64,000 bases of DNA, taken from Bdellovibrionales bacterium RIFOXYC1_FULL_37_79. Lineage in GTDB: Bacteria > Bdellovibrionota > Bacteriovoracia > Bacteriovoracales > Bacteriovoracaceae. Positions 8,780-50,819 of this stretch are shown in pieces. The notes beneath the pieces are model-generated. The model worked only from the letters and a program-made list of their open reading frames with translations. It did no database searches and was not told the origin of the DNA. Position numbers and translations under genes: made by a program. The stretch is from NCBI GenBank assembly GCA_001770015.1, contig MEQB01000011.1, forward strand, positions 186,001 through 250,000. The letters run 5' to 3'. Within the stretch, counting starts at the first letter, position 1, and each line of letters begins with the position of its first letter.

Positions 8780-8784
8780 ATCTT

Positions 8785-9771
8785 ATGATTAATCATAAAA
8801 TTGAAGAAGATGTCTTGAAATTCTATCAAGGTAAAGCGGTATTAATTACCGGTGCAAGTGGATATCTTGGTAGTGTTATAAAAAATTTGATCGAAAAGGT
8901 AGCAAAAAAAATATTGGTCGCAGAACGTAATTTAAAGATTGATTTATCTTGTCGTAACCAATCTGTTTCGGTTTTATCGAATGCTTTGTTAAATCAAATA
9001 GAAGAAGCGGATATTGTATTTCATTTAGCATCGCAGACCAATGCATATACTTCTCGTCAAGAACCAGTAAATGATATTTTATCGAATTATGTGTTATTGG
9101 CCCAAATCATTGAAGGTTGTTTGGTTAAAAAGGTTAAACCCTTTATTGTAAATGCCAGTACCGTAACTGTTTATGGGAAAAAAGAGGGGACAATAACTGA
9201 GTGTGATAATATTTATCACCCGATTACATTTTACGATATCAATAAAAGAACATCAGAGATGTTGCTAAATTATTATATTGAAGAGAAGTTGATTAAAGGA
9301 TGTTCTCTACGATTGGCCAATATTTATGGCCCGTCACTAGGCGCAAGTAATAAAGGGCGCGGAGTTATGAATAAAATGATTCATAAGGCTTTGCGTGGTG
9401 AAGATTTGTCTTTATTCGAAGGATGTGATTATTTGCGTGATTATACTTATATTATAGATGTTGCTTATGCTTTTTTGCTCTCGCCAATGTTTGAAACGAG
9501 AACAAATGCCAATGCATATGTTTTGTGCAGCGGCAGAAGTGAATTGATGAGCTTTTATTACAACGTAATTAAGGAATGTGCAGCTAATATTGGAATTAAT
9601 ATAAATATTGTGACCTGCAAACCATCGTCAGAATTGTTAGACATTGAGAAGCGAAACTTTCGAGGAATGTCTCAATTATTTTCTGATCATACTGGATGGA
9701 AACCGATGGTTGGATTTAAGGAAGGGGTCGAAAGAACTATTAGATTTCTTCAAAGCGAGGAGAAAAAATGA
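8785..9771 (+). CDS. NAD-dependent epimerase/dehydratase (extended SDR)
   Basis: About 328 residues from ATG 8785. It has the Rossmann motif TGASGYLG near residue 24, HLASQTNA, the catalytic serine/threonine region NASTVTVYG, and YDINK as the YxxxK pair. The substrate part ends in GWKP, typical of NDP-sugar enzymes. It overlaps the next gene by 4 bp (ATGA). Between a C-methyltransferase and an O-methyltransferase-like gene, it probably reduces or epimerises a keto-sugar intermediate. The frame is also open from 8740, but that would overlap the preceding gene by 40 bp. Confidence 0.85.
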   Translation: MINHKIEEDVLKFYQGKAVLITGASGYLGSVIKNLIEKVAKKILVAERNLKIDLSCRNQSVSVLSNALLNQIEEADIVFHLASQTNAYTSRQEPVNDILSNYVLLAQIIEGCLVKKVKPFIVNASTVTVYGKKEGTITECDNIYHPITFYDINKRTSEMLLNYYIEEKLIKGCSLRLANIYGPSLGASNKGRGVMNKMIHKALRGEDLSLFEGCDYLRDYTYIIDVAYAFLLSPMFETRTNANAYVLCSGRSELMSFYYNVIKECAANIGININIVTCKPSSELLDIEKRNFRGMSQLFSDHTGWKPMVGFKEGVERTIRFLQSEEKK

Positions 9772-10667
9772 ACAACGAAAATGTAAGCAAGCAATGGAAT
9801 AAAATCAATAAAGAATTATTTGATGAAAATCTAGTTGTTAATATGGATTCATTTAAAGATTCTAATTATTTTTATAAACTTGCTATGTGGAAGCCGGAAA
9901 CCAACGGAGTAAGATATTATAAGAGTTTTTTATATTTTGTTTGTTCAACATTGGACGAAGGTCACTGGGAAATTCTTAATAAAGTGAGAAATAGGGAAAT
10001 CGGTGGATCTAATCATATGATTGAATATAATAATTTGAAAATTTGTCTCGATTATGTCCAGGCAGCGTTAGAGTACAGTTTTATTAGTTCAAAATTTGAT
10101 TTTTGTTCTAAGCGTATTTTAGAAATTGGAGCAGGGTATGGGAGGACGGCCCATACAATTATTCAAAATAGTGATATCACTTCATATACCATTGTAGATT
10201 TACCTGAGTGTTTGCATCTTTCTCAAACATATTTAAAGAGTGTTCTTAACGCTACAGAATTTACGAAGCTGAGTTTTTTATCTGCGTCAGAGTTTAAGAA
10301 AAGCGAAATGAGTTTTGATTTGGTGATAAATATAGATTCCATGGCCGAAATGGATAAAAGTATTGTGGAAGAATATTTAATTAAAATTGGTAAGAATTCG
10401 CTTTATTTTTATGCAAAAAATCCTGTAGGAAAATATCAAGATCCTTCATTGTTAAATAAAAATGTAGATAAGGAGGCGATCGCATTTGCTCTAAAGACCG
10501 GCCCATTAAATCAAATAGTAGATATTTTTTCAGCGGAAGATATTGGTAAACAAGAACAGTTATTTTTGAACGCCTATAAACCTAAAGGTGACTGGGAAGC
10601 AATTATTAGTGCATGGGCTTCTCCTTGGTCTTATTACTGGAATGTGCTGTATCAGAAGGTGAATTAA
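9768..10667 (+). CDS. putative sugar O-methyltransferase (NanM-type)
   Basis: 299 residues. The SAM-binding motif ILEIGAGYGRTAHTI lies near residue 120, followed by YTIVDLPE, a pattern of the family annotated as putative sugar O-methyltransferase. The N-terminal 110 residues are the helical lid of that family. It has a GAGGAG ribosome site inside the preceding gene and a 1-base stop-start overlap (TAATG) with the next gene, so it is part of one translated run. The methylated position is unknown. Confidence 0.78.
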   Translation: MNNENVSKQWNKINKELFDENLVVNMDSFKDSNYFYKLAMWKPETNGVRYYKSFLYFVCSTLDEGHWEILNKVRNREIGGSNHMIEYNNLKICLDYVQAALEYSFISSKFDFCSKRILEIGAGYGRTAHTIIQNSDITSYTIVDLPECLHLSQTYLKSVLNATEFTKLSFLSASEFKKSEMSFDLVINIDSMAEMDKSIVEEYLIKIGKNSLYFYAKNPVGKYQDPSLLNKNVDKEAIAFALKTGPLNQIVDIFSAEDIGKQEQLFLNAYKPKGDWEAIISAWASPWSYYWNVLYQKVN

Positions 10668-11608
10668 TGAAAATCGTTATCACAGGAGCTCTCGGGCATA
10701 TTGGTTCAAAACTTATTCGAGAATTACCGAATAGGTTTATTAATGCTGATATTGTTTTGATAGATAATTTTTTAGTGCAACGATATTGCTCGCTATTTCA
10801 ATTACCGACAAATGGTCGATATAAATTTCATGAAGCGGATATTTTTGAGGCTGATTTGGTGGAATTATTCAAGGATGCAGATGTTGTGATTCATCTGGCG
10901 GCAATTACTAATGCGGCGGATAGTTTTAAGAATGCGGATGAGATTGAGAAAGTCAATTTTCAAGGCACGTGTAGGGTCGCTAAAGCTTGTGTTGAGACAA
11001 AATCCAAGCTCATCTTTTTATCAACCACAAGTGTTTATGGAACCCAGCTCGACAAAGTAGCAGAAGATTGTTCGTTGGACGAGCTTAAACCTCAGAGTCC
11101 TTACGCTGATTCGAAGCTCAGATCAGAAAAAATGTTGAGTGAGCTAAAGGGACTTGAATTTATTATTTGTCGTTTCGGAACCATCTTTGGTATTTCGGAT
11201 GGGATGAGATTTCATACGGCCATTAATAGATTTTGTTGGCAAGCAACGATGGGAATCCCGCTTACAGTTTGGAAAACGGCTCTAAATCAATATCGGCCAT
11301 ATTTGGATCTAGAGGATGCGGTTGATTCCATTTGTTTCATTATAAAAAACCAGATATTTAATAGAGAAATTTACAATGTTTTAACAGATAATTATATGGT
11401 TAGTGATATTGTTGGCATAATTCGTGAGATAATTCCTCGCACAGAGATAAATTTTGTTGAAACACAAATTATGAATCAATTATCTTATTTTGTATTAAAT
11501 GACAAATTTACCAATTCTGGCTTTCAATTCAAGGGGAATATCAAGGAGCAGATAACAAAAACTATTCATCTTTTAAAAGGTGCAAACACTAGTTTGCTTG
11601 TAAACTAA
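10667..11608 (+). CDS. NAD-dependent epimerase/dehydratase
   Basis: 313 residues from ATG 10667, preceded by AAGGTG; the frame is open further upstream, inside the neighbour, but that part has no similarity. It has the GALGHIGSKL cofactor motif at residue 7, HLAAITNA, the catalytic FLSTTSVYG region and YADSK (YxxxK). It closes the plus-strand modification operon. Its stop overlaps the stop of the convergent PtmA-like gene by 4 bp. Likely an NDP-sugar 4-epimerase, dehydratase or reductase. Confidence 0.85.
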   Translation: MKIVITGALGHIGSKLIRELPNRFINADIVLIDNFLVQRYCSLFQLPTNGRYKFHEADIFEADLVELFKDADVVIHLAAITNAADSFKNADEIEKVNFQGTCRVAKACVETKSKLIFLSTTSVYGTQLDKVAEDCSLDELKPQSPYADSKLRSEKMLSELKGLEFIICRFGTIFGISDGMRFHTAINRFCWQATMGIPLTVWKTALNQYRPYLDLEDAVDSICFIIKNQIFNREIYNVLTDNYMVSDIVGIIREIIPRTEINFVETQIMNQLSYFVLNDKFTNSGFQFKGNIKEQITKTIHLLKGANTSLLVN

Positions 11609-12387
11609 AGCCCAAATCCATCATCAACAACAATATTTTGACCAGTCACAAACGCTGAAGCGGGATTCAGTAGATACGCAATGGTTGAGTTTATATCATC
11701 TGGGTTCAGCATGCCTTTAAGTCCACTTTCTTCATGATAAGCTTTCAAAAAAGATTCTGGTTGGTTTGCGAAAATCCCACCAGGGCTAATGCAGTTGATC
11801 CGGATTCCATTCTTTTTTAAAAGCTGGGCCATATATTTTGTTAGATGGATTATAGCAGATTTTATACAGGGATATTCAGGCCCTGTAGTTAATTTAGTAC
11901 CTTCATAAATTGAAAATTTAGGGGCAATAACTCCATAGATTGATGATATATTTAAAATTAGACCGTTTAATTTATTTTGTATCAGGTGTTTTGAAAACAT
12001 CTGGCTCATTAAAAAGTATCCACCTAAATGCATGTTTAGATTTTTACAGAATGTTTCATACTCAACTTCAAAAAAAGGTTTATTAAAATCGTGCGTCTTT
12101 GGGTAAGCATTATTAACAAGTCCGTAAAGATCATTAGGAAAATGATTGATTGCTGTATTGATCATTTTGGAAATTGATTCTTTATTGGTGATGTCCGTAT
12201 TTACGACTAATAGGTGGCGGTTGTGTTCTTTAGGTAAACTGCTTACTAGATTATTGGCGGATTCAATATTATTGTCAGCGATAATGACATTTCCGCCACT
12301 AAAAAGAACGGTTTTGACAATTTCAGAACCGATTAATCCAGCTCCTCCTGTGACAATAATAGTTTTGTTTTTTAAAATATCATTCAT
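11605..12387 (-). CDS. ptmA: SDR oxidoreductase, PtmA-like, of legionaminic acid operon
   Basis: 260-residue classical short-chain dehydrogenase/reductase. It shows the TGGAGLIGSE cofactor loop, the NISSIYG serine, the YPCIK catalytic YxxxK and the C-terminal VTGQNIVVDDGFG. In Campylobacter the gene at this place, next to the CMP-legionaminate synthetase gene ptmB, is ptmA, which acts late in modification of legionaminic acid. The operon order here is the same. Last gene of the minus-strand operon, with an ATGA overlap to its upstream neighbour. Its biochemical step is not certain even in Campylobacter. Confidence 0.8.
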   Translation of the reverse strand: MNDILKNKTIIVTGGAGLIGSEIVKTVLFSGGNVIIADNNIESANNLVSSLPKEHNRHLLVVNTDITNKESISKMINTAINHFPNDLYGLVNNAYPKTHDFNKPFFEVEYETFCKNLNMHLGGYFLMSQMFSKHLIQNKLNGLILNISSIYGVIAPKFSIYEGTKLTTGPEYPCIKSAIIHLTKYMAQLLKKNGIRINCISPGGIFANQPESFLKAYHEESGLKGMLNPDDINSTIAYLLNPASAFVTGQNIVVDDGFGL

Positions 12388-13091
12388 ATTTTTTCCCTCA
12401 TCAATAATGTTACAAGTTTGAAATCTATGGGATTGTCGATATCAATCGAGCGTTCTTCTGGCATTTCATACATGGCGGTATCGTCAAGAAACACGCTGGT
12501 AGCTTTAAAAAGTTCATCTCTTTTCCAAACATAAATCGAGGCATTCATATCGTATGATTTGGGAGCATCTTGGCGTCGGGTTATATTATTTGGCAGTTGC
12601 TTTGAAAGATGGGCCACTCCGTTGGTGATTTCTATTAAATTGAAATAGGGTGATTTTCTCGAAGGCATAGCGGTAATTACGTTCTTGACGTTATTTTCAA
12701 TCAGTAGATTTATACAATTAGTTATATCAGTTGATAGTCTCAAGGGTGCAGTCGCATCTAGATCAACGACGATATCATACTTAACATTATTTATCTTTTC
12801 ACATTCGAGTACGCAATGCTGGATAACTGGTAGCTTGGCAGCAGTATCAGTAGCTAAATGATCTGGACGTTTGACTAGAATATTTGCTCCAAATTTTTTA
12901 GAAACTTCTAAAATTTTATCATCATCGCTGCTTATAGCAATTGTTTCAAAATATTGAGATTCGATGGCCTGTTCAATGGTATAGGCAATTAAAGGTTTGT
13001 CTAAAAGCATTTTGAGGTTTTTTCCAGGGACCCCTTTAGACCCACCTCTTGCACATATTGTGCATATTATATGCTTGGATTGGTGACCCAT
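12384..13091 (-). CDS. acylneuraminate (CMP-legionaminate) cytidylyltransferase
   Basis: 235 residues. The activating enzyme couples CTP to a nonulosonic acid. The CTP-binding signature CARGGSKGVPGKNLK is at residues 13-27. [10 protein letters not shown] and a DLDATAPLR metal/substrate motif follow. ATG 13091 has a good AAGGAAG site even though it overlaps the end of the upstream oxidoreductase by 25 bp. By position it corresponds to PtmB/LegF. A second enzyme of the same family lies at 19126. Confidence 0.9.
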   Translation of the reverse strand: MGHQSKHIICTICARGGSKGVPGKNLKMLLDKPLIAYTIEQAIESQYFETIAISSDDDKILEVSKKFGANILVKRPDHLATDTAAKLPVIQHCVLECEKINNVKYDIVVDLDATAPLRLSTDITNCINLLIENNVKNVITAMPSRKSPYFNLIEITNGVAHLSKQLPNNITRRQDAPKSYDMNASIYVWKRDELFKATSVFLDDTAMYEMPEERSIDIDNPIDFKLVTLLMREKI

Positions 13092-14005
13092 ATTTCTTCC
13101 TTTGATGCTTTTTCAATAGATTCAATTAAATTTAAAATATTCAAACCCTCATCAATAGAACAAAGATTTGTGGTGTTGTTTTGCAGAATATCTTCGAGCA
13201 TAAGTTTGTATGTTTCATTTCTGGGTACTGGGATTAAGCGTGTGTCGTTATTAATTTGAACTTTATTATTAATTAAATCGATTTCAAAAGTTTTATCAAA
13301 AGTGTTGATGGTAATTTTTCTTTGAGTAATTTGGTCATTGTAATTTAGAATTATTGTTCCAGAAGGACAGCGTTTGGTTTGGAAAAGAACGGCCACTTGA
13401 TCATCGGTATCAATCTCAAGATCGCTGGCCTTTTGTACTTGCGCTGTAAGTTTTGTCCATTGCCCTAATAACCAAATGGCGTAGTCAAGCTCGTGACTTA
13501 AATCGCGTAAAACTCCTCCACCTAGATTTTTATGTGCGGAGTAGCTTTCTTTATAATTTTGATTGGGGCGCCAAGTGGGAAGATATTGTCCTACGTAAGC
13601 ATGAAAAGAAAGAATGGTTTGGTTTTGGAGTTCTTTTTTTATAAATTGTATTAAAGGATGAAATCGAAGATTGTATCCAACAAACGTTTGCGTTCTAAGC
13701 ACATTAAAATCAATATCAGCTAATTCATAAGAGGCAGCGGCGATTGGTTTTTCGATTAGTATTTTGCCAATGAATTTATTGGCATTAAGGGTTTTGAGTG
13801 ACTCAGCATGTTTGCTGGTTGGTGTGGCAATAATAATTAAATCAAAAGAGTTTTTATTATTATCAAGAGCAGTTTGAAGATTAGTGTATGATTCAAAGGG
13901 TAAATTTTCTTGCTTTGAGACAATAGTTAAATTATGGCCTTTCGATGATAATATATCTGTATGGCGTTTTCCTATGGAACCATATCCTACTACACAGATG
14001 TTCAT
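13067..14005 (-). CDS. Gfo/Idh/MocA oxidoreductase, PtmF-like
   Basis: 312 residues. N-terminal Rossmann fold with VVGYGSIGKRH and the EKPIA motif near residue 90, which carries the catalytic lysine of the family. The C-terminal half is a beta-sheet substrate domain. A Gfo/Idh enzyme stands at the same place in the Campylobacter ptm locus (ptmF). ATGA overlap with the nucleotidyltransferase upstream. Substrate probably a sugar nucleotide or nonulosonate derivative; inference from position. Confidence 0.82.
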   Translation of the reverse strand: MNICVVGYGSIGKRHTDILSSKGHNLTIVSKQENLPFESYTNLQTALDNNKNSFDLIIIATPTSKHAESLKTLNANKFIGKILIEKPIAAASYELADIDFNVLRTQTFVGYNLRFHPLIQFIKKELQNQTILSFHAYVGQYLPTWRPNQNYKESYSAHKNLGGGVLRDLSHELDYAIWLLGQWTKLTAQVQKASDLEIDTDDQVAVLFQTKRCPSGTIILNYNDQITQRKITINTFDKTFEIDLINNKVQINNDTRLIPVPRNETYKLMLEDILQNNTTNLCSIDEGLNILNLIESIEKASKEEIWVTNPSI

Positions 14006-15051
14006 TCGAATTCCTTGGAGAAATCATCCTGTGCTTTTTGATAATCCATGTGCTGGCCAATATCCAGCCAATACTCTCTTAGAGGAAATGAATAAGTTTT
14101 GCGATTGTTGTTCAGTATTCTTTGAAATAATTGAGGCATGTTTAAATGTTCGTCATCTTTAATAAAAGACAGTGCGTCGGGGTGTAAAACATATATGCCA
14201 GCATTTACATAAAATTTCTTGGTAGGTTTTTCGCTTATACCGATAATTTGTTGATTTTCGTTAACCTTGACTACGCCATAGGGAACTTGGAAATCAAATT
14301 CTCTGATACACATTGTGGCAAATGAGTCATTTTGTTGATGGTAGTTGAGTAAATGGAGAAAATTAATTTTTGTTAACAAGTCTCCGTTCATAACTAAAAT
14401 AGGTTCATTTAAGTTTTCAAGACATTTTAGAGAACCTGCAGTGCCCTTGGGGGTTGATTCTTTTATATATGATATGTTTACACCCAGTTGATTTCCATCT
14501 TTAAAATAGTCTTCAATTAATTCCGACATATGGTTTACACAGAGGGTAATGTTATTAAATCCATATTTAGCAAAGTTTCTAATAATATTCTCTAGAATGG
14601 GTTGACCGCCAATTTGAAGTAAAGGTTTTGGCGTGAAGTCAGTTAGTGGTTTTAATCGAACACCTTTCCCACCTACCATTAGAATCACTTTATTGGGTTG
14701 GGTGGTTTGTGAGATAAGTTCACCTATATCTTCCATTCCAACTACTGAGTTATCGCTGTTTAAAATTGGAATTTGGTAAATTTTGTGTTTGGTTGCTTTC
14801 GCTAGTATTTCTTCTTTTGTTTCATGAATGTACGCAGTCAGTGGTGTTTTACAAATGATTTTATCGATGGAGTCTGTTAGTTGAACACCTCGAAGGAGAC
14901 CACGACGAATATCACCGTCGCTAATGGTGCCAATAAGTTTTTTATTATCATCTAAAACAATACAAATTTTCATGGCACCAGAATCTATAATGGCCAAGGC
15001 ATCTTTAATTGATGCCTTGGGAAAGATGGTCATCTTGGTTATATTTTTCAT
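14002..15051 (-). CDS. nucleotidyltransferase with tandem CBS domains, PtmE-like
   Basis: 349 residues. Residues 1-120 form two CBS domains. From about 125 on there is a sugar-1-phosphate nucleotidyltransferase fold (MVGGKGVRLKPLTDFTPKPL, NGDLLT, VNAGIYVLHPD). This fusion is typical of PtmE, which makes GDP-glucosamine for the GDP-linked legionaminic acid route of Campylobacter. The AAGGAG ribosome site lies at the very end of the preceding gene and the ATG follows its stop directly. CBS domains suggest control by an adenosine ligand. Confidence 0.87.
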   Translation of the reverse strand: MKNITKMTIFPKASIKDALAIIDSGAMKICIVLDDNKKLIGTISDGDIRRGLLRGVQLTDSIDKIICKTPLTAYIHETKEEILAKATKHKIYQIPILNSDNSVVGMEDIGELISQTTQPNKVILMVGGKGVRLKPLTDFTPKPLLQIGGQPILENIIRNFAKYGFNNITLCVNHMSELIEDYFKDGNQLGVNISYIKESTPKGTAGSLKCLENLNEPILVMNGDLLTKINFLHLLNYHQQNDSFATMCIREFDFQVPYGVVKVNENQQIIGISEKPTKKFYVNAGIYVLHPDALSFIKDDEHLNMPQLFQRILNNNRKTYSFPLREYWLDIGQHMDYQKAQDDFSKEFE

Positions 15052-41368: not shown

Positions 41369-42033
41369 TGGAATTTCCGCAAAATACCAAGTGGTATGAT
41401 TTACTAAAAGAAGAGTTTCATAAAACTTATTATCAAGATTTACTTAAAAAAATTTATAAAGAAAAAAATCAGGGCAAAATCATTTATCCTGCGACGGATG
41501 ATGTTTTTAATGCTTTTCGATTTACCGATTATGATCAGGTCAAGGTGGTTTTACTGGGCCAGGATCCCTATCACGGCGATGGTGAGGCCCATGGACTTTT
41601 GTTTTCAGTTAAAAAAGGTGTGCGGATTCCACCTTCTCTTCGAAATATTTACAAGGAACTCGCCAGCGATATCGGGTTCAGGATTCCCACGGACGGGTAC
41701 TTAAAAAACTGGGCCGATGCAGGTGTTTTTCTTTTAAATACCATTTTGACCGTGGAAAAGGATCAGGCCCTCAGTCACAAAAATTGGGGATGGGAGATTT
41801 TTACGGATCAGGTTATTCGTATTTTAAATGCCAGGGAAAAACCACTGGTCTTTGCCTTGTGGGGCAATTTTGCCAAATCTAAAGAAGCTCTTATAACCAA
41901 TCCACAGCATTTTGTTCTCAAGGCCAATCACCCTTCACCCTTATCTGCCAGTCGTGGCTTTTTCGGTTGTAAACATTTTTCCAAGATCAACTCAATCTTA
42001 AAAACCATCGGAGAAAAAGAAATTCCCTGGTAG
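41368..42033 (+). CDS. ung: uracil-DNA glycosylase, family 1
   Basis: 221 residues from ATG 41368. Removes uracil from DNA. VVLLGQDPYHGDGEAHGLLF holds the catalytic aspartate at about residue 66. LLNTILTVEK and HPSPLSASRGFFGCKHFS hold the leucine-loop and catalytic histidine. Full length; ends in EIPW. Its TAG stop is the first part of a perfect palindromic repeat. Confidence 0.96.
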   Translation: MEFPQNTKWYDLLKEEFHKTYYQDLLKKIYKEKNQGKIIYPATDDVFNAFRFTDYDQVKVVLLGQDPYHGDGEAHGLLFSVKKGVRIPPSLRNIYKELASDIGFRIPTDGYLKNWADAGVFLLNTILTVEKDQALSHKNWGWEIFTDQVIRILNAREKPLVFALWGNFAKSKEALITNPQHFVLKANHPSPLSASRGFFGCKHFSKINSILKTIGEKEIPW

Positions 42034-42088
42034 GTACGGCCTGACTTTTGGGGATGTGGTACATCCCCAAAAGTCAGGCCGTACCTAC
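42030..42088. repeat. perfect palindromic repeat at the ung stop codon
   Basis: A 28-bp arm (42030-42057, beginning GTAGGTACGGCCTG) is followed by a 3-base loop GGT and its exact reverse complement (42061-42088). It overlaps the TAG of ung. Single or double arms of the same sequence occur at 43692, 44350, 49171 and 50793, plus a degenerate arm at 42244. It could act as a transcript-end hairpin; no T-run follows. Confidence 0.9.
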
Positions 42089-42136
42089 TTCCGAGATGGT
42101 GATTTTTAAGCATGGTAATGTAGAAAAAACACTGTA

Positions 42137-42160
42137 TTTTAAGCATATCGATGCTTAAAA
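42137..42160. repeat. 10-bp inverted repeat in the ung-ATPase spacer
   Basis: TTTTAAGCAT, four bases, then ATGCTTAAAA: perfect arms. A third copy of the half-site TTTTTAAGCATG occurs at 42102-42113. No T-run follows, so it could be a protein-binding site or a decayed element. Confidence 0.45.
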
Positions 42161-42243
42161 TTGGAGAGTGGATTGAAAATTCAAAGAGTTAACCGCTTTA
42201 CTAAAAAAAATCAGATTTAAAAATTGATTATCGAATGCATTAT

Positions 42244-42264
42244 GTCCCTAAAATTCAGGCCGTA
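42244..42264. repeat. degenerate single arm of the palindromic repeat
   Basis: TCCCTAAAATTCAGGCCGTAC differs by one base from the right arm of the copy at 43725. It lies 65 bp upstream of the ATPase gene, so that gene is bracketed by two arms of the same sequence variant. This is the only copy not touching a stop codon. Confidence 0.7.
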
Positions 42265-42328
42265 CTATCATTTTGATTGCTTTTTTGGTGGTAGAAAAGT
42301 AAAATATATTCATAAAATGGTACCATAA

Positions 42329-43705
42329 ATGGAATTATTAAAGCGTAACATATTGAAATCACTTCACGGATGGAATGACTCTCCAATTCGCTCTCCATTA
42401 CTGTTAATTGGGCCTAGGCAAATTGGTAAAACCACTTTATTACAAATTTTTGGAAGACAAATTTCCCGTAGATTTTTTGAAATTAATTTTTGGAGCGATT
42501 CAAACCAAACTCTTAAAAAAATTTTTCAAAGATCTCTTGAACCAGCTAAAATACTAAATGAATTAGCAGATTATTTTGAAGTTGATGCCATTAATCCAAA
42601 AGAAGATGTGCTTTTTTTTGACGAAATACAAGAAAGCCCTGAGGCCTATGCTTCCTTGAAACTATTTAAAGAAAAAATGAAAGAGTTACGCATTCTGGTT
42701 ACCGGAAGCTATCTTCAACTTTTCTTAAAAACAGAAGAGATTAAAAAACTCCCCGTCGGATGTGTCGATGAATTTTACTTAGGCCCTTTATCCTATACTG
42801 AATTTCTTGAAAACTATGATGAGCGTATTTTTCAAAAATATAATCAACTTGACCTCAATAATTTTGAGATAACAATCGCCCTGCATGAAAAACTAATGGA
42901 ATTGCTTAACGAATATTTTTTTACTGGAGGATTACCTGAAATTATTTTCTTGTACTTATCTGGTAATAAAAATTATCAAACAAGACAAGACATTCGTAAA
43001 AAACAAAAAGATTTACTTAATCAATATACTTTAGATTTTCAAAAATATGGTAAAAGTGTTCACATAAAAAAAATTGATCAAATTTTTCAAAGTATTCCTT
43101 TTCAATTGGAAAGGGTTAATGATCAATCAACCAATCGATTCTCTTATAAAGATTTAGGGAAAAATATCAAGTATCAATCGTTGCATTGGTCTTTTCAATA
43201 TTTAAAAAATGCTGGTCTGATTATAAGATCATTTATAGTCAGCAGGCCTGATCACCCTTTTAGAGTTCATGAACAAAAGGAAGAACGAAATTTATTCAAA
43301 TGTTTTTATTTCGATATCGGGCTTTTGAATGCAGCATTAAATTCATCGATTAAAATTAGCTTGGAAGACTGGGGTTCGTATAAGGGATATATTGCTGAAA
43401 ATTTTGTTGCCATTTCACTTTATAATATGTTTCAAACCGAACTGATTACTTACAAAAAATCATCCAAACATGATAGTGCTGAAATTGAATTCCTTATTAC
43501 TGACGAGAATAATAATATCATCCCAGTTGAAGTAAAATCTTCAAAGAAAGCACTGTCTTCAAAAAGTCTTGATTCTTTTGTTAAAGAATTCTCTCCTAAA
43601 AGGGCCTATAAACTGGTTCCGATCCTAAGCGAAAAATTCAAAAGAAATGAATATGTTACCATTCCTCTTTATATGATTGATAAGATGGAAGATGGTACGG
43701 CCTGA
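42329..43705 (+). CDS. DUF4143-type AAA ATPase (AAA_14)
   Basis: 458 residues. Residues 20-140 are a P-loop domain: Walker A LIGPRQIGKTTLL, Walker B VLFFDEIQES and sensor-like LVTGSYLQL. A winged-helix region follows. The C-terminal DUF4143 part has YIAENFVAISLY, AEIEFLITD and VEVKSSKKAL, a PD-(D/E)xK nuclease-like pattern. Such proteins are common accessory genes of unclear role, often near mobile DNA. Its last three residues (GTA) and its TGA stop are encoded inside the palindromic repeat. A broken relative lies at 3476-4484. Confidence 0.87.
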   Translation: MELLKRNILKSLHGWNDSPIRSPLLLIGPRQIGKTTLLQIFGRQISRRFFEINFWSDSNQTLKKIFQRSLEPAKILNELADYFEVDAINPKEDVLFFDEIQESPEAYASLKLFKEKMKELRILVTGSYLQLFLKTEEIKKLPVGCVDEFYLGPLSYTEFLENYDERIFQKYNQLDLNNFEITIALHEKLMELLNEYFFTGGLPEIIFLYLSGNKNYQTRQDIRKKQKDLLNQYTLDFQKYGKSVHIKKIDQIFQSIPFQLERVNDQSTNRFSYKDLGKNIKYQSLHWSFQYLKNAGLIIRSFIVSRPDHPFRVHEQKEERNLFKCFYFDIGLLNAALNSSIKISLEDWGSYKGYIAENFVAISLYNMFQTELITYKKSSKHDSAEIEFLITDENNNIIPVEVKSSKKALSSKSLDSFVKEFSPKRAYKLVPILSEKFKRNEYVTIPLYMIDKMEDGTA

Positions 43706-43748
43706 CTTTTAGGGATGTACCGCCTCCCTAAAAGTCAGGCCGTACCAT
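43692..43748. repeat. palindromic repeat variant supplying the ATPase stop codon
   Basis: 24-bp perfect arms (43692-43715 and 43725-43748) around a 9-base loop. Same family as the copy at 42030, but with GGGGA changed to AGGGA in the left arm and the matching change TCCCC to TCCCT in the right arm, so pairing is kept. GGT-ACG-GCC-TGA in the left arm is read as the last codons of the ATPase gene. Confidence 0.9.
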
Positions 43749-43774
43749 TTTCCTTTTGTACCATTTTCCTTTTC

Positions 43775-44257
43775 CTACTGTATTACTACATAATACTCAT
43801 GAAGAGTTGCGCCGTGACCGGTATTGAGATTTAATCGATAAAATGAATGCTTGGCGCCACCTGTTCCATTATCAACAAATTTTACGTTGTCGCGAGCATC
43901 GGTAACAATGATTACAAAATCTAGGTAATCATAACCATAGGAGCCTCTGGAGGCGACTTCGTCTTCAAAGCGAGCTAACCAACGGTAGTCAGCGATGGCC
44001 CGCATTTCAATTTTTTGCTCTTTCGCCCAATGATTGTTTCCGCTATGGGATGAGAACCCACCAGAAAACCCATATTTCAGGTAAATTTTGTCACCGAATT
44101 TTGTGTCATAATTAGTATAGAAAATTTCGAATTCACTTTGCCAAGTGCTAAAATAGCCTGGGGTCGGATTATAAAGGTTGCCTTTGACATAAATTTCAGA
44201 AGCGCTAACAGTTGCCGTAAAGATTAAAAGAGTTATTAAAAAATGTGCTATTTTCAT
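43775..44257 (-). CDS. small secreted protein of unknown function
   Basis: About 160 residues. MKIAHFLITLLIFTATVSA is a clear Sec signal peptide, so I start there and not at the upstream ATG 44353, which falls in a repeat arm. The mature part is rich in aromatic residues and glycine and is probably beta-rich (YVKGNLYNP, YLKYGFSGGF, YDYLDFVIIVTDARD). This reads like a carbohydrate-binding or C2-like exported domain, without any motif I can name. GAGGAAC stands upstream. It follows the histidine kinase gene of the YcaO cluster on the same strand, but a repeat arm lies between. Confidence 0.65.
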   Translation of the reverse strand: MKIAHFLITLLIFTATVSASEIYVKGNLYNPTPGYFSTWQSEFEIFYTNYDTKFGDKIYLKYGFSGGFSSHSGNNHWAKEQKIEMRAIADYRWLARFEDEVASRGSYGYDYLDFVIIVTDARDNVKFVDNGTGGAKHSFYRLNLNTGHGATLHEYYVVIQ

Positions 44258-44349
44258 GTTGTTCCTCACTTTTTTTGCCTGCATGCTTTTACCCCATCTC
44301 GGACTCAATAACCATACAACTTTCATATAGTTGTAAAAATTTCCACGGT

Positions 44350-44375
44350 GCATCCCCGGAAGTCAGGCCGTACCT
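44350..44375. repeat. single arm of the palindromic repeat behind the histidine kinase gene
   Basis: On the minus strand the kinase ends in TAG, then GTACC, then a second TATTTAG, then the arm GTACGGCCTGACTTCCGGGG. The short sequence TACCTAAATAGG is thus present twice in tandem (44371-44394), like a small duplication at the junction. Confidence 0.75.
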
Positions 44376-44385
44376 AAATAGGTAC

Positions 44386-46305
44386 CTAAATAGGGGGATA
44401 TTTGCCGACAATTTCTTTGATCCATTCCATTTTGGGAAAATGATCTGAGCTGTATCCTGTGGATAAGTAGAGATTTTTAAAGCCAAGCTGAAAAATCTCC
44501 TTTGCGATGAATTCACCCTTTAAATCATGACTCAGGCTGGAATCTACATAGATTGGAGTATTAAAATTAAAAAGGTGGGCCTCATTGAAAAAATTATCCG
44601 GATGAGAAAAAGTTTTGCATTTTTGATTTTTATTTTTGGCGTGAATTTCCCATGTGGTTCGAATAAGTGGATCATCATCAATCAAAATCCAATCAAGTTT
44701 TTGTCCTGATTGCTCAAAGTGGATTGGTATAAACCCCGCCATGGATTTGGGAATTATTTTAACCGCCAGTCTGTTAGCCCGCTGACGGATCAGGGGTTCT
44801 TCAAAGCGGCTAGTGACCAAAATTGCCCGACTACCAAGCGCTAGGTCTTCGATCAGGTCAAGACCATTTTTATCTTGATTCAATAGTTCATAATCTATAA
44901 GAAAAAGCGAGTTGGAAATATTTGACGACTGAACAAATGCTTTGAAGTCGTCTCCGCTAGTAAAGCAGGACATCTTGGCAATACGATCTAAATAGTGAAG
45001 TCCCTCAAGTCGATTTTTCCAAACACCATGAATTGATAAATCATCATCGAGAACAATTATATGAAGGTCGTCGTATAAAAATAACTTGTCCATAAACCAC
45101 TCTGGCGTATCAACTTTTGGCAGTCTGATTTCAATGGTAGTCCCCACATATTCTTTTGAGTGAACGATGATATTGCCTTCAGCCGCCTCGATGGTTTTTT
45201 TAGCGTGGTAAAATCCGAGACCGCTGCCAGAGGTGGGATGTCCTTCCTTGCCAAAAGTTACTCCTTTTTCTCCCAGTTTATTTAAGATTTGATCGGGAAT
45301 ACCTTTGCCGTTATCCTGCACTTTAAGAATGATATGCGCCTTCGAATGTTCCAGGCTAATTTTGATGAGCCCCCCAGACCCAGACGCAGGAAGGGCCTCG
45401 GCAGCGTTATTAATAAGATTACTCAATACTCGTTTAAATTCAAAGGGAGAAATCAGGCTAAATAATCCATATCCCTGATTAAAGTCTCCTTCAATAACGA
45501 CGTGAGGAATATTTTGTAATTGAGCTCTTTTTTCAGAAATTAGATTATCAATTAGAGAAGATAATAAGGTTAGTTCAAATTTATCACAATATGGGGATGG
45601 CTGTTTATCAATAGATGCTTTAGCGACTTTACTTCGCTCCAGTAAGTGGTTGCTAATATCATTTATGCGGTTAACGGCATTTCTTATCATGATCCTTTTT
45701 TCTTCAGGGAAATGATCAAGTGAGGTCAGAAGTATTTGCAGGGATGCGAGCGGGGAGCGGATGTCGTGGGAGACTTGTGAAGCAATATCAAACATGGTCT
45801 CGGCTCGTTGCCATTTTAATTCATTGTCAAAGCTAATTTGCATTTTTTTCTTGATATTGGGAATGATAATCAAAGATAAAATAACTAAGAGAATCCAAAA
45901 GCCAAGGACGTATAAACTCCAATTGGCCCATGCATAGGTAAAATTCAGCTTTCCAAGTAAAATGGTTTTATCTTCATCAAAATAAATATTAACGGATTGG
46001 GTTTTGGAAAAAAATTGGGATGATTTGGTTATCGGAAAGACTTCAAATCGGGAATTGACATCATTGGTTGCTTGAAAACTGATCTGTTGAAAATTTCTTG
46101 AATTGGATAGAATTAAAATTACCTGGCGATATTCGCTGGTTTTGATTATTGATTCAACACTTCGGGTGAGGTTTTTGCTTAAATGGGAGTGATAAAAAAT
46201 GTTAAGTACGATTGAAAAAATAATAAGACAAAGAAGTAAATACAAAAGTGTTAAGGCAGACTTTAAATAGATATTTTTAATGTTTGTTTGTAACATCGTT
46301 AACAT
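44386..46305 (-). CDS. membrane sensor histidine kinase with two C-terminal receiver domains
   Basis: 639 residues. Transmembrane segments at about 17-38 and 131-149 enclose a periplasmic domain of about 90 residues. The kinase core has the H-box SQVSHDIRSPLASL (His180), N-box NLINNAAEAL, VQDNGKGIP and GSGLGFYHAK. Two receiver-like domains follow: the first with LDDDLS and the phospho-acceptor in LFLIDYELL, the second with LIDDDPLIR and an IYVDSSL site. There is no DNA-binding output domain. Its start lies 3 bp after the YcaO stop, so it is the last gene of that unit and probably senses something outside the inner membrane. It may pass phosphate on to the sigma-54 regulator upstream. Confidence 0.88.
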   Translation of the reverse strand: MLTMLQTNIKNIYLKSALTLLYLLLCLIIFSIVLNIFYHSHLSKNLTRSVESIIKTSEYRQVILILSNSRNFQQISFQATNDVNSRFEVFPITKSSQFFSKTQSVNIYFDEDKTILLGKLNFTYAWANWSLYVLGFWILLVILSLIIIPNIKKKMQISFDNELKWQRAETMFDIASQVSHDIRSPLASLQILLTSLDHFPEEKRIMIRNAVNRINDISNHLLERSKVAKASIDKQPSPYCDKFELTLLSSLIDNLISEKRAQLQNIPHVVIEGDFNQGYGLFSLISPFEFKRVLSNLINNAAEALPASGSGGLIKISLEHSKAHIILKVQDNGKGIPDQILNKLGEKGVTFGKEGHPTSGSGLGFYHAKKTIEAAEGNIIVHSKEYVGTTIEIRLPKVDTPEWFMDKLFLYDDLHIIVLDDDLSIHGVWKNRLEGLHYLDRIAKMSCFTSGDDFKAFVQSSNISNSLFLIDYELLNQDKNGLDLIEDLALGSRAILVTSRFEEPLIRQRANRLAVKIIPKSMAGFIPIHFEQSGQKLDWILIDDDPLIRTTWEIHAKNKNQKCKTFSHPDNFFNEAHLFNFNTPIYVDSSLSHDLKGEFIAKEIFQLGFKNLYLSTGYSSDHFPKMEWIKEIVGKYPPI

Positions 46306-46308
46306 GCA

Positions 46309-47310
46309 TTATCCTAAGGGGTGGATGTTTAAATTTAAATCATCAAATTGAATATTGTAGCCGGCGTATTCTTGGATTCTTTTAAGATTAACCTTTTCAT
46401 TGGTCGTTTTACCCCAGTAGGCATTTTGAAATAATTTGCCGGTATTTGCTTTGTAAACATAAAGTGGGCATTTGATAAAACCATCAGGTGGAGTTAGTTT
46501 GTTAAATTTAATGGGGGGGACCAAGGTCCGAATTATGGGTTTCAGTGAGGAATTTTTTTTGTTTTTAAACCAATTGTCATAAGAATGAAGATTGGAAATA
46601 TCGTTTATATATTTCATGTGTCCATCGGGGGTGTTGGGTGTCTTGATTTTATAGGCGGTTAAAATTTTGCGGGATGGTTTTTGATATATGTTTTTTGTTT
46701 TTTTGTCGAAGATTTGGGATATGATATTTCTGGTAACTTCAAATGAGGCGCTCTCTATAGCATCATCAATATTGGTATTAGTCCCAAGACCAATGCAAAA
46801 TCCAAATGGATTGACGAATTGATCGCCCTCGGCATAAGCGAGGATGGTGGTGTGAGAGTCGTAAGCGGAAATGTCAAAATATTGAATTTTAATATTGAAT
46901 TGGGAATTTAATGTGTTTCTAAGATTTCTAAAAAGAGAAGTAGCGACTGGTTTTTTCCTTGCATTCATTAAAAATGAACAGAAAAATGAATCCCGTTCAA
47001 GCAGTTCATTGGTGGCATTTATCATGGCGCTTTTTTTATTAAAAAAGGCGGCAACCCCATTGGAGGAGGTTTTGTTGTAAGAACAAAAAATTCGTTCAAT
47101 GCATTCAACCGATGCTTTTAAGAGAGCATCGCGCTCGTTAAATGCCGTTCCTCTTCCAATAAACTTTTTCTTGTTATAAACCATTGATACTGAGATGTCA
47201 TAATAATTCAAGTCGAAAAATCTTGGCCATGTGTAATTGACAACTTTAAGGTCAAGCTTTTGAGCGTTTTCAAAAAGCCAGGTTTCTAATTTTCTTTTTG
47301 AATTTTCCAT
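46309..47310 (-). CDS. YcaO-domain protein
   Basis: 333 residues. YcaO enzymes use ATP to activate peptide amide bonds, forming azolines, thioamides or amidines in ribosomal peptides, or act on ribosomal protein S12. The diagnostic blocks are present. GRGTAFNERDALLKASVECIER (here 52-73, with Glu69 and Glu72) leads, then SSNGVAA (82-88) and NATNELLERD with Glu102 and Glu105. GLGTNTNIDDAIESASFE ends in Glu191. No E1/ocin-ThiF partner, TfuA or dehydrogenase gene is adjacent. The C-terminus ends in NIHPLG, not the proline-rich tail of azoline-forming enzymes. The gene overlaps the binding-protein gene by 25 bp and is three bases from the kinase gene. Confidence 0.88.
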   Translation of the reverse strand: MENSKRKLETWLFENAQKLDLKVVNYTWPRFFDLNYYDISVSMVYNKKKFIGRGTAFNERDALLKASVECIERIFCSYNKTSSNGVAAFFNKKSAMINATNELLERDSFFCSFLMNARKKPVATSLFRNLRNTLNSQFNIKIQYFDISAYDSHTTILAYAEGDQFVNPFGFCIGLGTNTNIDDAIESASFEVTRNIISQIFDKKTKNIYQKPSRKILTAYKIKTPNTPDGHMKYINDISNLHSYDNWFKNKKNSSLKPIIRTLVPPIKFNKLTPPDGFIKCPLYVYKANTGKLFQNAYWGKTTNEKVNLKRIQEYAGYNIQFDDLNLNIHPLG

Positions 47311-48833
47311 AACGGTAAACTCACTTGGGTTTTAGAGAAATCGAATGACCAGCCTTTTCTGATGATTGCTGCAAAAGAGGAAGACATGAGGGGAAAAAAG
47401 AATCCCTTAATGAGTGCAGAGTAGTGTAATTCTCTCAGCTTCTCAATGCGTTCTTGTTTGTTTTCAATTTGCACATATTCATCAAGCCATTTCTTGCCTT
47501 TTTCTTTGCCAAGGCCGAAGCGATCATTGTTTATTATAAAAGACACTAATCCGATATCCTCTTGAAAACCAGAGTCGACTCCCGCAATATGAAAATCTGG
47601 ACGATCGTTGTAATGTGTGTTCGGATCTGGATATGCAGAAGCAGAACTTGTTTTAACATTTTTATTAATTTCGTTTAATTTGGATTCTAGTTTTTGTCGC
47701 AAGTCTGTTACAAGTAGGTAATCACCTTTGATGTTTTGATTGATAGATAAATCATCTGAAGCAGATTCAAGTTTATGAATAAATTCTTGTTCTTGTTCTC
47801 CGCTAATTGCACCTTCCCCGAAAGAAAGAAAATACTGATTAACTGGACGGTAACTTTTATAATGCGTAGTTAGTTCATGGAATAAGGCCCTTATCTTTTT
47901 TGCAAGAATAAAGCGATTTTTTTCCGTTATTTGTTTTATACCCTTTTGAGTGAAATTTAAAAAACTGATTTCCATATCTAAAGTCTGATGGATTTGTGCT
48001 TCAGTATTTTGAGACGCTAAGTCTATTAGATGATCTGTTGAGATAATATCTGCGGTAGTAATACAATCTACTAAATTTTCTCTAAAAAGTTCGATAGCGT
48101 TTTTAGGAGCAGATCTGCCTGATGGAACAAGAATAATTTTATGCGGTATCTTCGCAGAATAATGGTAATGATTCTTGTTCACGGCAAGGTTCATTTGCAG
48201 GTTTTTAGAGTCAATGTCTTTTTCAAGGTAGTACACACCGGAAGTGTTTCTATAGTCGATAATTTTTAATGTTGTCATGTCTAGTGAGGATTTGGGAATA
48301 ATGGAAAAATCAACTGAAGCTAGCATCGGTAACAGAAAAACAAATTTTTTCTGTGGTTTTAATATGACTTTGTCTTTAGTCGCAATTATACCCGGGCAAG
48401 GGTCATTAAGCGATTTTAGTATAAGATTAGGGCATAATAATGTTTTCAGGTTGCCATGTGGGTTTGTCGACAGGATCATAAGTCTTTTTAAAGATGTTTC
48501 AACATCTTCACCTGTAATTGCCATACCGTCCACGGTCTTTAAATTTGGATGGATATCAAAATGTAATTCATCATTTTTCCAATAGTATTTCTGGGCGATG
48601 CCTGAAATTAAATTTCCTTTTAAATCAAGTTCAACGAGTGTTGAATAAATATTTTTTAATAACATATATTCCGGGATGTATGTTATTCGACTAGGGTCAT
48701 ATTCATTGATTGATTTGAAAAGTGGAAAAGCCACTCGTAGTGTTGGTGCTTCTGAAGGTGTGTTTTTGCTACATGTATTAATGGTGAACATACAACTTAT
48801 TAAAATAATTATTTTAAACATAATCTGGTACAA
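47286..48833 (-). CDS. ABC-type oligopeptide-binding lipoprotein (SBP family 5)
   Basis: About 515 residues. The signal (FKIIILISCMFTINTC) ends in a cysteine that can be lipidated. After it come the family 5 features: LRVAFPLF, IYSTLVELDLKGNLISGIAQKYYW, a VDGMAITGEDVETSLKRL block, and a C-terminal lobe with YPDPNTHYNDRPDF. Such proteins bind peptides in the periplasm. No permease or ATPase gene lies nearby, so it may feed a permease encoded elsewhere or act as a sensor. The start overlaps the 3' end of the small peptide gene by 25 bp (or 13 bp with ATG 48821). Confidence 0.85.
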   Translation of the reverse strand: MYQIMFKIIILISCMFTINTCSKNTPSEAPTLRVAFPLFKSINEYDPSRITYIPEYMLLKNIYSTLVELDLKGNLISGIAQKYYWKNDELHFDIHPNLKTVDGMAITGEDVETSLKRLMILSTNPHGNLKTLLCPNLILKSLNDPCPGIIATKDKVILKPQKKFVFLLPMLASVDFSIIPKSSLDMTTLKIIDYRNTSGVYYLEKDIDSKNLQMNLAVNKNHYHYSAKIPHKIILVPSGRSAPKNAIELFRENLVDCITTADIISTDHLIDLASQNTEAQIHQTLDMEISFLNFTQKGIKQITEKNRFILAKKIRALFHELTTHYKSYRPVNQYFLSFGEGAISGEQEQEFIHKLESASDDLSINQNIKGDYLLVTDLRQKLESKLNEINKNVKTSSASAYPDPNTHYNDRPDFHIAGVDSGFQEDIGLVSFIINNDRFGLGKEKGKKWLDEYVQIENKQERIEKLRELHYSALIKGFFFPLMSSSFAAIIRKGWSFDFSKTQVSLPLWKIQKEN

Positions 48834-49060
48834 TCAGATGCCCTTTCAATAACCGCCTCATTTACCACACCTTTTTCCTTTAGTTTTTCCATTAAAGTTT
48901 GATTTTGTCCTTCAAAATGTTTTTCATCTGATTGATTGCCGGACATTTCTTCTAATGATTTATTTTGATTCTTCATTAGTTCAGTAGAAAGTGCGGTATT
49001 AGTCACTAAAAGAGATGCTAAGGCAATTTTGGAAACAAAATTCTTTTTAGTTTTTTTCAT
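48809..49060 (-). CDS. candidate RiPP precursor: 83-residue peptide with signal-like leader and Cys-x3-Cys tail
   Basis: A strong ribosome site (AGGAG, six bases before ATG 49060) marks a real gene. Residues 1-25 look like a Sec signal peptide (basic start, hydrophobic core, ALS). Residues 26-73 are hydrophilic and helix-prone, rich in Glu, Lys, Gln and Asn. The end is ASDCTRLCLK with Cys77 and Cys81 beside Ser75 and Thr78, the residue types YcaO enzymes act on. The gene lies first in a tightly overlapping run with the binding protein, YcaO and kinase. A precursor or signal peptide is my inference; a plain small periplasmic protein with one disulphide is the main alternative. Confidence 0.65.
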   Translation of the reverse strand: MKKTKKNFVSKIALASLLVTNTALSTELMKNQNKSLEEMSGNQSDEKHFEGQNQTLMEKLKEKGVVNEAVIERASDCTRLCLK

Positions 49061-49170
49061 AAAAATCTCCTCTAACTAGGTCTGATTATTGTTCGTGCAA
49101 GCTACCAAATATCCAAATTGATAACAAGTTCAAATAAACATGCTGCAATTTTTATACGCTTTGCTAAGCT

Positions 49171-49195
49171 GCATCCCCAAAAGTCAGGCCGTACC
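49171..49195. repeat. single arm of the palindromic repeat at the end of the DHp-like gene
   Basis: GCATCCCCAAAAGTCAGGCC then GTACC on the plus strand. On the minus strand, GGT-ACG-GCC-TGA is read as the last codons (GTA) and stop of the 65-residue gene. Confidence 0.85.
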
Positions 49196-49381
49196 TCCTT
49201 GTCCTTTCACTTCTTCCCATTTTTGATTAAGTTTTAAAATAGCTTCGTCGATTTGCAGAATTAATTTGGGATTTTCATCCAGGCAGTGGGGATTATCTTT
49301 GAGCAGGTCGATCCCCATTTTAATCGAGACGATTGCATTTTTTAAATCGTGAAATAGTTTTTTATTTTTATCGCTTTTCAT
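49184..49381 (-). CDS. 65-residue DHp-like histidine phosphotransfer fragment
   Basis: The stretch LFHDLKNAIVSIKMGIDLLK looks like the first helix of a histidine-kinase dimerisation domain with the phospho-accepting His in HDLKN. ILQIDEAILKLNQKWEEV would be the second helix. There is no ATPase domain. The ATG overlaps the end of the sigma-54 regulator gene by 14 bp, so the two are co-translated. The last residues and the stop come from the palindromic repeat, so this may be a kinase truncated by the repeat, or a small phosphotransfer partner. Confidence 0.65.
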   Translation of the reverse strand: MKSDKNKKLFHDLKNAIVSIKMGIDLLKDNPHCLDENPKLILQIDEAILKLNQKWEEVKGQGGTA

Positions 49382-50699
49382 AATTTGAGTAGAAGGTGTT
49401 ACTGGAAATTTTAAGTGTCTTGATTGATAAATTAACCTTGTGTTCGTTGTCCTTCATGACTGATTCCACCAATTCATTTTTTAACTTTCTCATGGTTTCA
49501 TTCATGCCAAACGTGAGTGCATGTTTCTTGATATATCCGGTGAGCAGATTATCAGACGTTTCAAACGGGGTTTGAGATTGGAATTGCTCGGGTAAATCGG
49601 CGGCGAGGATAATCCCTTTATTTTTTGATTTCAAAACCTGTATGACCTTTTCAAGTTCTCTGATATTACCAGGCCAACCATAGTTATTCAGGATTGTTTT
49701 AACCTCTTTATGAAAAATTATTTTTCGAGGGGTTTGCTTTAAGAAATGTTTGATAAGAAGTTCAATATCATCTTTGCGTTCGCTTAAGGGGCGGAGATAA
49801 ATATTGGCGCCGGTTAATCGATAGTATAAATCCAATCGGAATTTTTTTTGATGTACCAGCTCAATAAGATTTTCACAAGTGGCAGAAATGATCCTGAAGT
49901 TTGATTTGATTACCTCAGTTGAACCGACCGGGGTGAATGATTTTTCCTCGATGGCCTTTAGAATTTTGGCCTGCAAACTCAGGGAAAATGAGCTGATTTC
50001 ATCTAAAAAAATAACTCCCCCATGCGCTTTTTTCAATAAACCGGTTTTTTTAATGCTAGCTCCGGTAAAGGCCCCTTTCTCATGTCCAAACAGTTCTGAT
50101 TCAAGCAGGGTTTCTGGAATAGCGGCGCAGTTGAGTTCGATAAAAGGAGAATTTTTATGGCAGGCCTCAAATATCTTTTTGGCCAAGAATGATTTTCCTG
50201 TGCCGGTTGGGCCTAGAATGAGAATGGGAATATCACTTGCAATGTTTTCCACCAAATGCAGAATTTCATTTTTGGTATGTTGATCATTGGTAATATAAGT
50301 ATTTTGGATGAAATTATCTAATATAAATTTTTTTTCACCCAGTAAAAAACTGCCAACCACTTTTTCTATGGCCCGGTCTTCCTCTCCTTTGACAAAGTAA
50401 TCTTGACAACCCATTTCGTAGGCTTTTTGAATATTTTCTTCATCGTCGTAGCTACTTAAAATCACCGAGTAAATGTTCTTGGATACACTTTTAGCAAGGA
50501 CCTGGAGTCCATCCAGTTCATCATCAATATTCAGATCAATAAATACCAGATCAAATGTTTTATTGGAAAGGATTTCAATGGCCTCTTTGGTTTTATTACA
50601 GGTGATTACATTTCCAAAGGCCTTAAGCTTAAATGATAGTGATTGGGCAATAAGGGCATCATCATCCACCACCAAGGTATTTATTTTTCTTATATTCAT
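49368..50699 (-). CDS. sigma-54-dependent response regulator (NtrC family)
   Basis: About 443 residues from ATG 50699 (the frame is open 36 bp further up). Receiver domain with VVDDDALI and the acceptor Asp in LVFIDLNID. The AAA+ domain has Walker A LGPTGTGKSFLA, the sigma-54 contact loop EKGAFTGAS, and Walker B GGVIFLDEIS. The C-terminus is a short helix-turn-helix-like region (MRKLKNELVE). It activates RNA polymerase carrying sigma-54 when phosphorylated. It is the first gene before the DHp fragment and the peptide/YcaO run, so it is the natural regulator candidate for that cluster. I found no good GG-N10-GC promoter in front of the peptide gene. Confidence 0.92.
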   Translation of the reverse strand: MNIRKINTLVVDDDALIAQSLSFKLKAFGNVITCNKTKEAIEILSNKTFDLVFIDLNIDDELDGLQVLAKSVSKNIYSVILSSYDDEENIQKAYEMGCQDYFVKGEEDRAIEKVVGSFLLGEKKFILDNFIQNTYITNDQHTKNEILHLVENIASDIPILILGPTGTGKSFLAKKIFEACHKNSPFIELNCAAIPETLLESELFGHEKGAFTGASIKKTGLLKKAHGGVIFLDEISSFSLSLQAKILKAIEEKSFTPVGSTEVIKSNFRIISATCENLIELVHQKKFRLDLYYRLTGANIYLRPLSERKDDIELLIKHFLKQTPRKIIFHKEVKTILNNYGWPGNIRELEKVIQVLKSKNKGIILAADLPEQFQSQTPFETSDNLLTGYIKKHALTFGMNETMRKLKNELVESVMKDNEHKVNLSIKTLKISSNTFYSNYEKR

Positions 50700-50792
50700 T
50701 GCGGCTTTAATATAGTCAAATTGGGAAAGATTCAAATATTCTTAAATGAGTGTGTAAAAATGATAGTATTCTTTTTTGGGAATCAAGGCATC

Positions 50793-50819
50793 GCATCCCC
50801 AAAAGTCAGGCCGTACCTA
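50793..50819. repeat. single arm of the palindromic repeat at the helicase stop codon
   Basis: On the minus strand, the TAG stop of the SNF2 gene continues directly into GTACGGCCTGACTTTTGGGG. A further TTCCCAAAA 13 bases on can pair with TTTTGGGGA to make a new hairpin. Confidence 0.85.

Follow-up and report, generated by a model that had tools for sequence, protein, structure and literature searches.

We examined a 64,000-nucleotide stretch of the genome of Bdellovibrionales bacterium RIFOXYC1_FULL_37_79 (GenBank assembly GCA_001770015.1, contig MEQB01000011.1, positions 186,001–250,000; hereafter the window), in which a run of minus-strand genes brings together a small signal-bearing peptide, a YcaO enzyme and proteins of sensory type. 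In the direction of transcription, these genes encode an NtrC-type sigma-54 response regulator (RR; 49368–50735, likely ATG start 50699) with a receiver and a sigma-54 interaction domain carrying the GAFTGA motif; directly after it, a 65-residue DHp/HisKA-like open reading frame (ORF; 49184–49381, HisKA E 0.028); an 83-residue putative precursor peptide (48809–49060) with a signal-like N-terminus, a helical middle containing an L-x3-G motif (LKEKG) and the tail ASDCTRLCLK; an OppA-like family 5 solute-binding protein (SBP) of 511 residues (47286–48821), the presumed peptide receptor, with an N-terminal lipobox-like or membrane-anchor segment; a stand-alone YcaO of 333 residues (46309–47310) with intact ATP-site acidic blocks and the C-terminal end HPLG; and a hybrid histidine kinase of 639 residues (44386–46305).

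The genes from peptide to kinase overlap or lie a few bases apart, the start ATG of the SBP (at 48821) falling within the 3' end of the peptide gene, which points to a single operon. An initial annotation, made from the letters of the window, had described these four ORFs, and we find all four where it placed them; it omitted the RR and the DHp-like ORF. Pfam searches placed the YcaO, the kinase and the regulator, with the SBP, searched as a single sequence, below threshold.

Phylogenetic distribution and conservation of the cassette

A YcaO search detected the protein in 10 of 59 genomes, counting the window's own. Seven of ten relatives' neighbourhoods have a related SBP and a small signal-bearing ORF before the YcaO and a related kinase after it, with the regulator upstream too in five of the seven. 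A YcaO profile matched in 120 of the 369 genomes of the phylum, and 63 of the 71 neighbourhoods examined contain SBP, YcaO and kinase together, mostly in that order, a recurrence which argues that the arrangement is not due to chance. Further cassette loci, including some in Elusimicrobiota, turned up after these first 63. The four genes thus stay together in relatives across at least one phylum, and an RR of the window family accompanies 34 of the 63 cassettes.

The association also holds when approached from the receptor. An SBP profile gave about 85 matches at E 1e-35 or better, almost all adjoining a YcaO gene; the exceptions are contig ends, a truncated YcaO (locus L228) and one SBP without YcaO (L229). 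SBP and YcaO distances are correlated (rho 0.52, a value reached in 0 of 2000 permutations). In public genome contigs, the SBP family turned up in Bdellovibrionota-type metagenome-assembled genomes (MAGs) and in three Elusimicrobia MAGs; it is rare in the Elusimicrobia (6 of 199 genomes). We found no earlier account of the cassette in the open-licence literature, and it is a previously unnamed, repeatedly conserved gene set. The L228 copy (4924–6875), an SBP and a YcaO truncated to about 106 residues with no recognisable peptide, is likely a decaying cassette.

A precursor peptide family with a conserved C-terminal cysteine

We gathered 61 cassette peptides of 51–171 residues, most with a signal-like N-terminus. 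Cysteine lies within the last 20 residues in 49 of them, and its frequency there is 4.6%, against 1.2% in the middle of the peptides; the short precursor with Cys, Ser or Thr in its core that is expected of a thiazole/oxazole-modified microcin (TOMM) is therefore present. In an alignment of 23 divergent members, Met1 and one C-terminal Cys are the sole invariant residues, and the L and G of the L-x3-G motif, upstream of this Cys, are nearly so. The initial annotation had asked whether both cysteines of the window tail are conserved: Cys77 (48830–48832) aligns with the invariant position, and Cys81 is not conserved. The sibling peptides L091 and L102 differ at this site, with Ser in the former and Cys in the latter; YcaO enzymes use both residues. 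The L017 peptide ends in GGWTL, and tails vary among cassette copies within a single genome.

The peptide ORFs are under purifying selection (dN/dS 0.05–0.33 in close pairs with measurable dS). Pfam and NCBIfam searches of the window peptide returned nothing useful. A profile of the family run against the 369 genomes gave 34 matches, every one at a YcaO cassette, so the homologues found by profile in Bdellovibrionota always occur with YcaO. Taken together, the cysteine bias, the conservation, the selection and the cassette-bound homologues argue that the peptide ORF is a real gene tied to YcaO and that its tail is a functional site.

The YcaO enzyme

The window YcaO matches the Pfam family at E 3.9e-12. 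Residues E69, R73, E102, E105 and R106, invariant among 53 cassette YcaO homologues, are all present in it, which bears out the intact acidic ATP-site blocks that had been noticed from the sequence and agrees with the ATP-binding residues expected of the D protein of TOMM systems. Its predicted model (predicted local distance difference test, pLDDT, 90.8) resembles archaeal YcaOs most, followed by heterocyclases, so the model does not settle the reaction type. The nearest solved structures are those of M. jannaschii and M. kandleri YcaO, at 11–18% identity in the structural alignment.

The initial annotation had remarked on missing partner genes, and comparison across loci agrees: no E1-like or ocin-ThiF-like partner, dedicated protease or exporter is conserved beside the cassette, for which reason we rejected membership in an ordinary TOMM cluster. 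The cassette does not have the make-up of a thioamitide cluster either, as it has no extra conserved gene and no TfuA match among its proteins in Pfam and NCBIfam. A neighbouring RimO (S12 methylthiotransferase) gene, which had been named as a finding that would speak against a modified peptide signal, was not seen near the cassettes. The window YcaO departs from the E. coli type, a ribosomal S12 accessory factor, in its length (333 residues versus 586 in E. coli), its weak similarity (E 0.0055) and its context of peptide, SBP and kinase in place of RimO.

A ThiF-family gene at L140 (2035–3114), a few kb upstream of an Elusimicrobia cassette, is the only E1-like gene seen near any cassette. 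We set aside L018, L019 and L020 as different systems. In L018 (9433–10422) and L019 (9655–10632), from two genomes, another YcaO system has a non-exported precursor of 117–137 residues adjoining YcaO and ending in TTLTATN(S/C)SSYCD(S/C).

The solute-binding protein and histidine kinase

As a single sequence, the window SBP matches SBP_bac_5 weakly (E 0.077). The best matches of the family profile are OppA-type proteins (E about 1e-26 to 1e-29), PrgZ being matched too (E 1.4e-16), and the predicted model (pLDDT 92.7) matches MppA/OppA structures; the family 5 identity proposed initially is therefore firm from profile and predicted fold. Most SBP members have a predicted membrane anchor or lipobox-like N-terminal segment, and no permease or ATPase gene is found among the conserved cassette neighbours, so the locus does not resemble an Opp/Dpp ABC importer. 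The anchor-like N-terminus and the lack of a conserved permease nearby fit a tethered receptor. The alignments disagree on whether Asp416 corresponds to the residue with which OppA holds the N-terminus of the peptide (Asp-to-Asp with AapF, shifted by two with OppA), and we did not use this as evidence.

In the cassette kinases, two membrane segments flank a loop of about 80–130 residues; the loop of the window kinase is periplasmic and of ~95 residues. Its HATPase_c (E 6.5e-20) and HisKA (E 5.5e-5) domains are matched by Pfam. Of the two receivers initially assigned to it, Pfam detects the first weakly (E 0.028–0.039) and the second not at all, though the latter looks receiver-like in sequence. 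Small DHp-like ORFs with an HD/HN-type box lie directly behind the sigma-54 regulator in the window, L120, L140 (45–290) and L269 (3699–3923), and are possibly phosphotransfer or decoy proteins.

Sigma-54 sites and linkage to conjugation genes

A link between the cassette and conjugation in relatives had been overlooked by the initial annotation. Exact or near-exact -24/-12 sigma-54 sites lie directly before the RR gene at eight loci (L012, L013 and L051–L056). In L013 and L054 (10/11 matches), and in L053 and L052 (9/11), a site also precedes a divergent operon, which in L013, L053 and L054 runs on into F-type transfer genes and in L052 stops at a contig border. We identified TraC, TrbI/TraB, TraE and TraK in the continuation of L013 and homologues in L053 and L054. 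In Bdellovibrionaceae-type loci, a TrbC/TraC set is found downstream of the cassette, and no sigma-54 sites were found in front of these transfer operons.

TraC/VirB4 occurs within about 25 kb of 23 of the 34 RR-bearing cassettes versus none of the 29 RR-less ones; contig ends shorten the flanks of several loci in both groups, and the longer flanks of the RR-less cassettes were covered for only part of these loci. We counted 21 pairs of YcaO and TraC no more than 15 kb apart, whereas random placement over the same 29 genomes predicts 1.35 and reached at most 8 in 20000 simulations; these genomes were partly picked for holding cassettes, while placement inside them was not selected. A conjugative origin of the window copy itself is unsupported, since its genome has no TraG/VirB4 ATPase match and the window no tRNA.

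Genomes G209, G211, G213 and G187 (several contigs) each hold 6–7 TraC genes and several different YcaO loci, a pattern which suggests many co-resident conjugative elements with distinct peptides. At L016 (14931–16835), between the cassette and the transfer genes, a reverse transcriptase and a bAvd-like gene occur together, a pairing characteristic of diversity-generating retroelements.

A radical SAM enzyme in the position of YcaO

Three Elusimicrobia genomes carry a radical SAM enzyme where YcaO would otherwise stand. Radical SAM gene, SBP and kinase follow each other in order in L253 (339–10670) and L269 (2000–8960), which belong to one genome, and in L267 (8537–12962) and L268 (8189–11882), where the radical SAM gene of L268 is split across two frames. 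A small exported-peptide ORF precedes the SBP in L253, L268/L257 and L269.

Peptide homologues without YcaO had been named at the outset as a finding that would count against a modified peptide. The profile search found none in Bdellovibrionota; one Elusimicrobia locus, L252, does carry SBP and kinase together with a peptide that has three Cys, and no YcaO lies closer than about 8 kb. From the radical SAM swap and L252, the common denominator is peptide, SBP and kinase, usually plus a peptide-modifying enzyme. That YcaO and a radical SAM enzyme stand in for each other next to the same kind of receptor pair suggests that the signalling architecture is modular and has been overlooked by genome mining.

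A candidate modified-peptide signal

The gene content, order and conservation of the cassette, its promoter-like sites and its linkage are directly established, and from them we infer that the peptide is modified and exported, that it is bound and sensed by the SBP, and that a phosphorelay follows. The cassette would then serve cell-cell signalling through a Sec-exported, YcaO-modified peptide sensed via a tethered SBP and a kinase, which we consider probable. The initial annotation had likewise proposed a modified peptide signal and not an antibiotic; the comparative tests mostly favour that proposal, and we regard it as supported.

Under this model, the product of the small gene would be a pre-peptide equipped with a Sec signal and, in its C-terminal tail, the conserved Cys. 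The stand-alone YcaO would activate a backbone amide in the cytoplasm and modify the tail, with that Cys or a neighbouring residue as the probable site, giving an azoline-, amidine- or thioamide-type product, and the modified peptide would be exported and then trimmed by a protease encoded elsewhere than in the cassette. The membrane-tethered OppA-like protein would bind the peptide as a co-receptor for the histidine kinase and not as a transporter feeder. The kinase would phosphorylate the sigma-54 RR, which would activate the cassette itself in positive feedback and, in the copies on conjugative elements, also the type IV secretion operon. Because the cassette adjoins DNA-transfer machinery in many relatives, predatory-type bacteria may use it to signal mating or crowding. 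We are evenly divided on the fuller proposal of a new Gram-negative class of mating or crowding signals, in which a Sec-exported peptide tailored by YcaO (radical SAM in Elusimicrobia) would, through a tethered OppA-like receptor and kinase, turn on a sigma-54 regulator together with the cassette's own genes and the type IV secretion system (T4SS) for conjugation on mobile elements of Bdellovibrionota.

Several observations weigh against a YcaO-modified signal. Twenty-nine of the 63 cassettes have no adjacent RR, and the best sigma-54-like site of the window, before the peptide gene, is weak (7/11 matches). Twelve of the 61 peptides lack Cys in the last 20 residues, some of them also lacking an obvious Cys/Ser/Thr match there; in two of the 12, Cys sits 29–30 residues before the C-terminal end. 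The cassette has no protease or exporter gene of its own, L252 has no YcaO, and we know of no precedent for cytoplasmic YcaO modification before Sec export.

It is unlikely, in our view, that SBP, kinase and RR read outside peptides (for example from prey), with YcaO and the small protein as an internal modulator or co-ligand. Carriers are mostly of predatory-type lineages, OppA-like proteins bind diverse peptides, and a YcaO-less set of peptide, SBP and kinase exists (L252); however, hardly any cassette lacks the peptide, whose terminal Cys is conserved, YcaO is almost never missing beside this SBP clade, and the sigma-54 sites and T4SS linkage suit an autoinducer better.

The modified peptide might instead be an inhibitor or self-identity tag (compare iCF10 of pCF10) that silences transfer among element carriers, with some other activating ligand. 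The peptide is encoded beside its receptor near conjugation genes, several different copies occur per genome, and their tails differ; set against this, the cassette has no conserved second peptide gene, and sequence does not show in which direction the response runs. We rate this explanation as quite improbable.

An antibiotic cluster making a ribosomally synthesized and post-translationally modified peptide (RiPP), with SBP and kinase only for autoinduction or immunity, seems very improbable: a YcaO accompanied by a small precursor normally marks a RiPP cluster (PMC8442711), but the cassettes share no neighbouring gene for export, proteolysis, immunity or additional tailoring, and the conserved neighbours are sensory and T4SS genes.

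Comparison with known systems

Conjugation in the enterococcal pCF10 system (PrgZ, cCF10/iCF10, PrgX) is controlled through an OppA-like protein that the element itself encodes and that binds a small exported peptide (PMC7117660). In relatives, the 23 RR-bearing cassettes near TraC likewise place an OppA-like receptor gene beside conjugative genes, but the window's genome has no TraG/VirB4 match. The enterococcal peptide is not YcaO-modified and is imported by Opp to a cytoplasmic regulator, whereas the cassette, in a Gram-negative host, has no conserved permease or PrgX-like gene and has a tethered receptor, a kinase and a sigma-54 regulator.

Stand-alone YcaO pathways are relatives in logic (PMC4979651, PMC8442711), and the bottromycin YcaOs function without a partner (PMC8442711). 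Like the bottromycin and streptamidine clusters, the cassette pairs a YcaO without a fused E1 domain with an adjoining short precursor; those clusters hold more biosynthetic genes and make secreted natural products, whereas the cassette precursor has a Sec-type signal and sensory neighbours. The archaeal YcaOs of McrA thioamidation, which include the closest solved structures to the window model, act on methyl-coenzyme M reductase and not on an exported peptide.

In the NisRK (lantibiotic), Agr and ComX systems, a membrane kinase senses a post-translationally modified peptide and drives its own operon. This modified-peptide autoinduction through a two-component system is what we propose for the cassette, but those systems are Gram-positive, use other enzymes, and have neither a solute-binding co-receptor nor a sigma-54 regulator. 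As the cassette fails the defining features of both pheromone plasmids and stand-alone YcaO pathways, we class it as working like a peptide-pheromone system and as a member of neither group.

Enzyme-modified peptide pheromones and peptide-controlled conjugation are known mainly from Gram-positive bacteria. If the proposed signalling role is correct, it would give YcaO a new role in intercellular signalling, define a new class of Sec-exported modified peptides, offer a handle on gene transfer among predatory bacteria, and supply a testable function for many unassigned stand-alone YcaO proteins.

Repeats around the cassettes

The interspersed repeat GGTACGGCCTGACTTTTNGGGA has eight copies around the window cassette (42033–50817), partly as inverted pairs. 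One copy lies on the minus strand just upstream of the regulator (50796–50817), and others at 49174–49195, 44353–44374, 43694–43746, 42033–42085 and 42245–42266. There are 29 copies genome-wide versus none for a reversed control, and the element is like a repetitive extragenic palindromic (REP) sequence or a miniature inverted-repeat transposable element (MITE). At L015 (oriented view of 5500–14500), the first 2.6 kb, just upstream of the cassette, consist of tandem repeats that translate to NNRWESVSQSE and have differing spacers, probably an array of clustered regularly interspaced short palindromic repeats (CRISPR).

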